Of a stretch of DNA of 64,000 nucleotides, positions 1 through 1,592 are shown piece by piece. The stretch is from Bacteroidales bacterium (GTDB lineage: Bacteria > Bacteroidota > Bacteroidia > Bacteroidales > UBA7332). The position numbers and the translations under genes are program-made. Location: contig JAQTZA010000006.1 in the NCBI GenBank assembly GCA_028687995.1, positions 32,486-96,485 of the forward strand, read 5' to 3'. Positions within the stretch are counted from its first letter, which is position 1; the number at the start of each line of letters is the position of its first letter. Under the pieces are notes generated by a model. The model made no database searches. It saw nothing but the letters and a program-made list of their open reading frames with translations, and had not been told where the DNA came from.

Positions 1-29
1 AATTTCTGACCCAATTAATACTTTGAGCT

Positions 30-155
30 ATGAAAACAACAAACAACACAACAGCCAAAATAGAAGAAATGACATTTTCAGCAATGAAACAAGTAAATGG
101 AGGTCAATATATTGAGATTATAATTGACGGAACAATTTATAGAATTAGAATTTAA
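30..155 (+). CDS. 41-residue double-glycine-leader peptide, copy 1
   Basis: The product has an N-terminal leader of about 25 residues ending in FSAMKQVNGG and a predicted 16-residue core, QYIEIIIDGTIYRIRI. The leader has the hallmarks of peptides cleaved after Gly-Gly by C39-type peptidase exporters: a hydrophobic Phe at about -10, Met at -7, Val at -4, then GG. The core alternates hydrophobic and polar residues and has no Cys, so it is not an obvious lanthipeptide or disulfide bacteriocin. Bacteroidales encode many GG-leader natural-product precursors and bacteroidetocin-like bacteriocins, but I cannot assign this one to a named family. It is followed by a second copy and two genes of unknown function. 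The exporter is not in the window. A secreted bacteriocin, a signal peptide or a modified natural product are all possible. Confidence 0.75.
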   Translation: MKTTNNTTAKIEEMTFSAMKQVNGGQYIEIIIDGTIYRIRI

Positions 156-185
156 TAATTTCTGACCCAATTAATACTTTGAGCT

Positions 186-311
186 ATGAAAACAACAAAC
201 AACACAACAGCCAAAATAGAAGAAATGACATTTTCAGCAATGAAACAAGTAAATGGAGGTCAATATATTGAGATTATAATTGATGGTACAATTTACCGTA
301 TCAAAATTTGA
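186..311 (+). CDS. 41-residue double-glycine-leader peptide, copy 2
   Basis: The protein is identical to copy 1 except that the penultimate residue is Lys instead of Arg (core ending YRIKI). At DNA level the leader and upstream bases match copy 1 exactly. The 3' part carries changes in the Asp, Gly, Tyr, Arg and Ile codons that keep the amino acid, one Arg-to-Lys change, and a TGA stop replacing TAA. That pattern is what selection on the encoded core would leave, and it is the best evidence that both frames are translated. The next gene starts 83 bases downstream. No close TAnnTTTG box precedes either copy, so transcription may begin outside the window. Confidence 0.75.
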   Translation: MKTTNNTTAKIEEMTFSAMKQVNGGQYIEIIIDGTIYRIKI

Positions 312-394
312 GTTCAGTCGCTTAATTTTTATAAAAATGATGATCATCGTGTTGATGAGCCAGTATTAAATTCTTTGAAAAGAAAATTACTGAT

Positions 395-1024
395 ATGAAG
401 AATAATTTTATTTCACCCCGAAATCTACCCCTAATGTCTGATTACATGAGGAGGAGAGAGAATAATATCATAACACTCGTAGATCGGTTGGGTGTTGATG
501 AATTTACTGATGATATAAAGATGAATGCTGCACTATCGCGGATCAAAGCAAGCATTTTATTAAAGCCGGTCTCATTCGGAGAACCGCAGTTTGAAGATTA
601 CAAGTATGAAGTGTCAACTCTCATGTTGAAGAATACAGCCATTGAGAATGATCTGTATGTTCATAAGATTTGTATTCCATTCACAGGAGATAAAGAAATA
701 TTCAAATATACGCCGTATAGCAATTTCCCTATTACGGAAGCGAACAAAGTCGTAGTTATACCTTTTGACGAAACATTAATTGTGTATGTCGCTCTCGATG
801 TACTTGATCCTGAATCAGCAATTGAACAGGCTCGTAAAATAATGCAATTGACAATACATCTTGTTAAAAGCAATAATGCAATGATTGAAATGTGGAACAA
901 ATCTGTTACGCATCAAATTGTTGAGAAAATGAGAGGTAAAAGTGAGCAATATCATCGCTTTGTACCCGAAAAACAGTTAAATATTTTTCATGCGCCTAAG
1001 ATTGATATTCAAAAACAGGCATAA
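395..1024 (+). CDS. Unrecognised 209-residue protein downstream of the peptide genes
   Basis: I do not recognise this protein. It has no signal peptide or membrane segment and looks like a soluble alpha/beta protein. The N-terminal 60 residues are basic and helical (YMRRRENNIITLVDRLG). A middle part with alternating beta-strand character follows (KVVVIPFDETLIVYVALDV at about 120-140), then a helix from about 140 and a basic tail ending in Gln-Ala. It starts at ATG 395, shortly after the second peptide gene and on the same strand, and is followed at 86 bases by another small gene. Its position suggests a role linked to the peptides, such as immunity, modification or regulation. That is inference from context only. 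Confidence 0.6.
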   Translation: MKNNFISPRNLPLMSDYMRRRENNIITLVDRLGVDEFTDDIKMNAALSRIKASILLKPVSFGEPQFEDYKYEVSTLMLKNTAIENDLYVHKICIPFTGDKEIFKYTPYSNFPITEANKVVVIPFDETLIVYVALDVLDPESAIEQARKIMQLTIHLVKSNNAMIEMWNKSVTHQIVEKMRGKSEQYHRFVPEKQLNIFHAPKIDIQKQA

Positions 1025-1109: not shown

Positions 1110-1376
1110 ATGAAAAGAAAGAAAATATCAAAAAGCAAATTCGAAATCTATACAGAATTGAACGTTTATCAAAATGCACCTGAAAAACCAGGTGTCTTCC
1201 TTCTATGGGCAAAACCATTTCGTGGAAATTGGGAGTGTTTTCATATTGGAAAATCTGACAATCTGAAATTTGATTTGCTTCAATTTTTGAGTCCAGACGA
1301 TTCTGAGAACCCAATCAAAGAGAAGGTTCGAAAGTTTATTTGCGGTTACGAATGGACTGATATTGCATTGGATTAA
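1110..1376 (+). CDS. 88-residue protein resembling a degenerate GIY-YIG fold
   Basis: The sequence contains PGVFLLWAKP near residue 30 and WECFHIGKSDNL near residue 46. The arrangement (GVxxL, about 15 residues, then xHIGKSxNL followed by a helix) recalls the core of GIY-YIG nucleases, where GIY and YIG strands precede an Arg-bearing helix. Here the second Tyr is His, and the expected catalytic Arg is not evident in the KFDLLQFL helix, so an active nuclease is doubtful. It lies on the same strand as the double-glycine peptide genes and the 209-residue gene, with an 85-base gap. The family match is by eye and tentative. The reading frame itself is clean, with a basic N-terminus. Confidence 0.5.
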   Translation: MKRKKISKSKFEIYTELNVYQNAPEKPGVFLLWAKPFRGNWECFHIGKSDNLKFDLLQFLSPDDSENPIKEKVRKFICGYEWTDIALD

Positions 1377-1592
1377 TTACAAACATTGAATTGTGCATAA
1401 AATAGTAAGAGATAAATTTTGAGAACTCCTGATAAGAGTCAATCATATCGTTTTTTTTGATTCAAACAATACCGTTGTGGAATGGGATTAGTTTGAAAAT
1501 GTTAGGTGAATATATAAATTGAGAAAGATGCCAGTGCTTGCCTGTGATAGGTAGGTACTGGTTAAATTTTTTTATAGGATATTTTTGAAAAA

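Follow-up and report, generated by a model that had tools for sequence, protein, structure and literature searches.

Peptide pheromones that are sensed by a histidine kinase are textbook Gram-positive biology. In Streptococcus pneumoniae, ComABCDE forms a pheromone loop around a peptide with a double-glycine (GG) leader, and its mechanism is established (PMC5295010). The same pheromone mechanism has been established for BlpABC/BlpRH (PMC7595303). ComD and ComE belong to the LytTR family, and a survey placed the complete Com(ABDEX) set in bacilli only (PMC8895600). Described Bacteroidota peptides include the bacteroidetocins, which have a leader of 15–16 aa, a core of 42–48 aa, at least two Cys, and an associated thiol oxidoreductase and five-TM protein (PMC6671954). 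A mining study of Bacteroidales RiPP clusters found the precursor of one cluster, BGC5, near a histidine kinase and a response regulator; BGC5 has no C39 exporter, and the authors considered that the peptides of four clusters with nearby signalling proteins might signal (PMC10352776).

The locus described here was found in a 64,000-nucleotide stretch of a Bacteroidales genome (the window, positions 32486-96485 of contig C26; the genome, G000, has 3.56 Mb in 26 contigs). It begins with an array of small peptide genes. The array has in common with ComABCDE and BlpABC/BlpRH a small GG-leader precursor, a C39 ABC exporter with an accessory protein and an adjoining kinase and regulator. Its peptide promoter also carries direct repeats, a putative operator, and a wider candidate regulon goes with them. 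It differs from ComABCDE in its Gram-negative host, its predicted hairpin core and its tandem precursor copies, and it uses a HisKA/HATPase_c kinase with a periplasmic sensor and an OmpR/PhoB-type regulator where ComD and ComE are LytTR proteins (PMC8895600). No sequence homology was found between the array peptide and the ComABCDE or Blp peptides. Judged by its architecture, the array system is an analogue of the ComABCDE and BlpRH systems and not a member of them.

The bacteroidetocins share with the array a GG-leader peptide, C39 ABC export (predicted here) and a Bacteroidota host, whereas the array peptide has a 25-aa leader and a 16-aa core without Cys, and is accompanied by a kinase-regulator pair instead (PMC6671954). 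A bacteroidetocin identity was rejected on leader, size and Cys, and no thiol oxidoreductase or five-TM gene was recognised among the neighbouring genes. The resemblance to BGC5 lies in a peptide precursor near a histidine kinase and a response regulator; the RiPP clusters are radical-SAM clusters, whereas the core system of the array has no modification enzyme, a predicted hairpin core and a defined operator (PMC10352776). No description of a GG-peptide/two-component pheromone in Bacteroidota was found in the literature searched, which held few subscription papers and no preprints, and as far as we could find a cell-to-cell peptide-signalling system of the kind known in streptococci is seemingly undescribed in this phylum.

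The tandem precursor array

A preliminary description of the window had reported two 156-bp tandem units encoding 41-aa GG-leader peptides with a 16-aa core, and both genes were confirmed where it had placed them (Table 1). Each precursor consists of the leader MKTTNNTTAKIEEMTFSAMKQVNGG followed by the core QYIEIIIDGTIYRI(R/K)I. Bases 1-127 of the 156 are identical between the two units. The eight differences that had been listed, namely six synonymous changes, one Arg-to-Lys change (Arg40Lys) and one change of stop codon (TAA to TGA), do fall within the ORF, but the units differ at nine positions, the ninth lying past the stop. Since nine positions differ, the window copies are not one copy assembled twice. 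With eight substitutions placed randomly in codons 33-42, the probability of no more than one residue change was P = 1.3e-4 to 4.9e-4. Given this bias towards synonymous differences, the peptide core seems to be under purifying selection, as the preliminary description had claimed.

Table 1. Coordinates of the array and associated features. Positions are those of the window unless contig C26 is named.
Feature	Position	Strand	Remarks
Precursor copy 0	C26:32259-32384		left of the window
Scaffold gap	C26:32386-32485		exactly 100 N, directly left of window position 1
Tandem unit 1	1-156	+	second or later array copy
Precursor gene 1, 41 aa	30-155	+	leader 30-104 (25 aa, VNGG end); core 105-152, QYIEIIIDGTIYRIRI; stop TAA
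Tandem unit 2	157-312	+	last array copy
Precursor gene 2, 41 aa	186-311	+	leader 186-260; core 261-308, QYIEIIIDGTIYRIKI; stop TGA
209-aa protein	395-1024	+	possibly co-transcribed with the array
88-aa protein	1110-1376	+	possibly co-transcribed; UvrC N-terminal part, E 0.0025, below cut-off
Terminator-like hairpin and T run	1530-1562	+	possible transcript end
Response regulator, OmpR/PhoB-type	C26:29736-30446		divergent from array; Response_reg + Trans_reg_C
Histidine kinase	C26:30468-31820		divergent from array, 438 bp away; HisKA + HATPase_c
C39-peptidase ABC exporter	C26:167958-170129		HlyD upstream; 135 kb from array

A look to the left for further copies had been recommended, and a third (copy 0), with its own promoter, was found beyond the scaffold gap, which lies inside the array. 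Copy 0 has the same core as the first window copy; its leader departs from that copy by Met11Ile, Leu16Phe and a single synonymous change, and there are no other differences. The first copy of the array is thus distinct only at its 5′ part and the last only at its 3′ part, which fits an internally homogenised array and agrees with the recent duplication or gene conversion proposed earlier. The repeat itself probably caused the assembly break at the gap. Because the 100 N may hide further copies, the copy number is given as at least three. Among the copies, only copy 0 is preceded by a recognisable promoter, and the 29 bp found ahead of each window ATG suggests a single polycistronic transcript.

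All three copies, and all relatives described below, satisfy the GG-leader pattern (GG end, hydrophobic residues at −4, −7 and −12). A strict form of the pattern was matched by 4 ORFs per 5.0 Mb of shuffled sequence, which excludes a match by chance; over all the fetched loci it returned the family peptides and one unrelated GG peptide. The window peptides gave no match to any Pfam or NCBIfam profile at E up to 10, which bears out the earlier remark that they resemble no named bacteriocin. The peptide of the same genus had no NCBIfam match at E up to 0.01, and those of three loci in other families (G224, G304 and G354:C7) had no Pfam match at the same limit. AlphaFold2, given the single 41-aa sequence, placed strands at residues 25-32 and 35-40 with a turn at D33-G34 (pLDDT about 91 for residues 21-40). 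On this single-sequence model the window core is likely to be a beta-hairpin, and every core of the family follows the plan strand-(D/N/H)G-strand. A translated and selected GG-leader peptide that would be secreted by a Bacteroidota host is well supported at the level of sequence.

Kinase, regulator, exporter and operator

In the kinase encoded divergently from the array, about 159 residues separate two hydrophobic segments. A search for a C39 peptidase or exporter had been recommended in the preliminary description; the genome encodes one C39 protein, the exporter of Table 1, which scored 531.7 bits against TIGR01193 (peptide cleavage/export transporters; cut-off 523.85). This exporter does not carry the operator of the peptide promoter, and no outer-membrane channel gene is adjacent to the exporter genes.

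GG-leader homologues in related genomes had been named as a test of the peptide, and they are present both in the same genus and in other families. Two genomes of the genus (G001 and G002) encode MKKADKKNAAQLRELSTAELKKVNGG followed by TTFCMI(V/I)DGKKIYITI. The absence of Cys, true of the window core, is not a family trait because this core has one. In G001 the peptide gene is divergent from an orthologous kinase (62% identity) and regulator (56%), and HlyD and a C39-peptidase ABC exporter, 75% identical to its G000 orthologue, lie 3 kb downstream of the peptide. In G002 the peptide and its operator are on a short contig, where the kinase gene was not found. The kinases of G000 and G001 share 80% identity in the kinase core and 36% in the sensor, and their peptide cores agree at 5/16 positions. 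Low identity of sensor and peptide is as expected if signal and receptor were diverging together, though other causes also make sensors diverge.

The peptide promoter of G000 consists of ATTAG-N6-ATGAG-N6-ATGAG-N6-ATTAG, a repeat with 11-bp spacing, then exactly 22 bp, then TAATATTG. A spacing of 11 bp is that of PhoB-type regulators, and TAATATTG resembles the Bacteroidota −7 element. The AT(G/T)AG repeats with the constant 22-bp spacer and TAATATTG were found at seven promoters: those of the peptides of G000, G001 and G002, that divergent from a kinase in a Paludibacter MAG (L044), and three more in G000. Matches to the operator pattern in G000 numbered 14, against 1 for a reversed control. 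The repeats are the putative sites bound by the regulator adjacent to the array.

The three other operator promoters of G000 stand upstream of what are, by their sequences, mostly secreted proteins. One precedes an operon that encodes proteins of 166 aa and 202 aa besides two large ones (one DUF6443), the second a 452-aa protein with a match to a T9SS tail below cut-off, and the third a protein of 293 aa that carries a T9SS sorting tail. The operon (L147:10528-11644) opens with the 166-aa frame, which is made of short LHxxxxSLHNxxAGLHRTD repeats, and the 202-aa protein; the large DUF6443-type proteins come after these. A single operator rule for all the loci was rejected, since no 11-bp repeat reached significance at two loci in G134 (G134a and G134b) or at G354:C9. 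A different element, a triple TCAG repeat with 11-bp spacing, is present in G224 and G304. Both the hairpin consensus and the operator of the genus (AT[G/T]AG repeats spaced by 11 bp, then 22 bp and TAATATTG) can serve as search keys.

Recurrence in other families

A search of 393 Bacteroidales genomes with the sensor half of the kinase gave three loci with a GG peptide divergent from the kinase (G354:C7 and two in G134), the peptides being MKRKTVKTEFVKLEKQSMKGIMGG followed by KHIIIFIHGRPIVLEV, MKKTKIKDFKKLEKKDLKKIQGG by VKHYVCINGEYFYYEE and MKNLLANTQIRILTNKELVKITGG by GRWVVVDGELVFVNN. A profile search added G224 and G304, in each of which the peptide, C39 exporter and HlyD genes are contiguous and divergent from the kinase and regulator, and G354:C9 (core IWYLVRREDGSIGLVFRRD), with an exporter and HlyD nearby. 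Thus six kinase loci with a divergent GG peptide lie outside the genus, in other families, and a peptide is next to histidine kinase and response regulator genes in G000, G001, G354:C7, G354:C9, G134 (twice), G224 and G304. A peptide-profile search independently matched G304, beside its kinase, and G354:C9. In the kinase tree the coupling to a GG peptide appears in four lineages or more, which implies either an ancient origin or several separate ones.

Eleven loci with weaker kinase-sensor matches served as negative controls (L061-L063, L112, L116, L117 and L119-L123), and none has a divergent GG peptide. The Paludibacter locus L044 keeps the kinase and the operator and has no recognisable GG peptide at the locus or genome-wide; the kinase may therefore have another input. 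At the place in L044 where the peptide would be expected (L044:7602-7900, minus strand) there is a frame reading VYLKKVNTG, possibly a decayed leader. The sensor profile gave nothing significant against solved structures (best E 0.02).

When the 393 genomes were searched with the peptide alone, clear matches were obtained in the genus only. The weaker ones were unrelated GG peptides (e.g. G181 and G187) or chance ORFs. A desulfoferrodoxin-like match in G011 (L006) was seemingly a chance match to a hairpin within a folded protein. Two of the loci showed further features. At G354:C9 (L115:6964-16980) three related histidine kinases, just one of them with an adjacent regulator, are grouped around HlyD, a C39 exporter and one GG peptide, which suggests receptor duplication. 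In G134, near a GG-peptide/kinase locus, three identical tandem genes for a 56-aa peptide (MEKKKISELVNQLENESNS...; L060:10410-11237) form another tandem precursor array, adjoining a radical SAM protein and a C39 exporter.

The proposed signalling loop and its alternatives

The kinase and regulator, the operator and the recurrence elsewhere suggest that the peptide is a signal controlled by a two-component system. The 'new secreted peptide' of the preliminary description was apt in that the peptide is selected and apparently secreted, but the regulatory system around the array lay outside its view. The predicted export of the peptide and its regulatory coupling to the two-component system are both well supported by sequence. 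In our preferred reading, to which we give a probability of roughly 0.6, the array product is a hairpin pheromone that is secreted and then sensed by the neighbouring kinase. Such a system would resemble streptococcal ComABCDE by analogy and not by homology. We consider it about equally probable that this kinase has the peptide as its ligand. The OmpR-type regulator would bind the 11-bp-spaced AT(G/T)AG half-sites and activate the TAATATTG promoter 22 bp downstream, and this single promoter, ahead of copy 0, would drive transcription of the tandem precursor genes. We infer that the core is exported after cleavage at the GG: the C39-peptidase ABC exporter and HlyD would cut there and release the 16-residue beta-hairpin. 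The hairpin would then get to the periplasmic sensor domain of the divergent kinase, which would phosphorylate the regulator, and the phosphorylated regulator would reinforce peptide expression and turn on a small regulon made up mainly of secreted proteins.

Extended to the other loci, the pheromone reading gives a Bacteroidales family of secreted beta-hairpin pheromones, each with its own divergent kinase, OmpR-type regulator and C39 exporter. Such a family would have been put together independently in Gram-negative bacteria as a counterpart of the competence-pheromone systems. It would control secreted proteins, and in one lineage its targets may include a radical-SAM peptide cluster. We lean slightly towards this wider view. 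A compact Bacteroidota version, with its peptide, kinase, operator and candidate regulon, would open density signalling in this phylum to direct tests. If the pheromone reading is true, the peptide must get to a periplasmic sensor, and its path across the outer membrane, at 16 residues, would call for an explanation. Other points also weigh against the reading: the L044 locus without a GG peptide, the distance of 135 kb between exporter and array in G000 with no operator at the exporter, and the lack of a significant 11-bp repeat at G134a, G134b and G354:C9.

In the main rival reading, which we consider rather unlikely, the peptide is a small antibacterial agent whose production responds to stress. 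It would act as an effector, either a bacteriocin of very small size and without modification or some other antagonistic peptide. The role of the two-component system would be merely to switch production on when it senses envelope stress or another cue. A GG leader and C39/HlyD export are indeed common to class II bacteriocins and bacteroidetocins, but the cores here, at 15-24 residues, are smaller than the 42 residues of bacteroidetocins (PMC6671954). One of the G134 peptides adjoins a radical-SAM peptide cluster with a C39 exporter, and L044 retains the kinase and operator without a peptide, both of which would suit an effector. However, no conserved candidate for an immunity gene adjoins the peptide. 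The 209-aa protein, considered as an immunity factor, found no homologue among seven related or system-bearing genomes (in a search that had no positive control), and the place of its gene is taken in G001 by that of an unrelated HU-Ig protein. The divergence of peptide core and sensor, with kinase core and exporter kept, also speaks against an effector.

The barrier presented by the outer membrane to re-entry of a 16-mer could mean that the peptide acts in the envelope of its own producer, as a periplasmic modulator (an inhibitor or sensor cofactor) of the kinase, without any signalling between cells. The pairing of kinase and peptide and the lack of a channel gene beside the exporter genes agree with this. 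It is nevertheless improbable, as C39/HlyD exporters are normally trans-envelope conduits whose TolC-like partner is encoded elsewhere. The near-identical copies abutting the scaffold gap might suggest an assembly artefact, or a repeat without function whose ORFs arose by chance. This can be dismissed given the synonymous bias of the copy differences and a layout kept within the genus and recurring in other families, which already refutes it for the family.

Because of the position of the terminator-like hairpin, the 209-aa and 88-aa genes could share the array transcript. The 209-aa protein has no Pfam match, a weak match to the PADLOC candidate defence family PDC-S54 (E 1.7e-6) and a poor model (mean pLDDT 47), and the 88-aa protein is perhaps a minimal GIY-YIG-like fold. 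Beyond them, on the minus strand at 1639-2889, is a gene for a 416-aa secreted C1-type cysteine peptidase (Peptidase_C1_2, bleomycin-hydrolase-like). On the other side of the array, just past the response regulator, lies a serpin gene (C26:28486-29739, L003:8486-9739) with a Pfam E of 3e-103.
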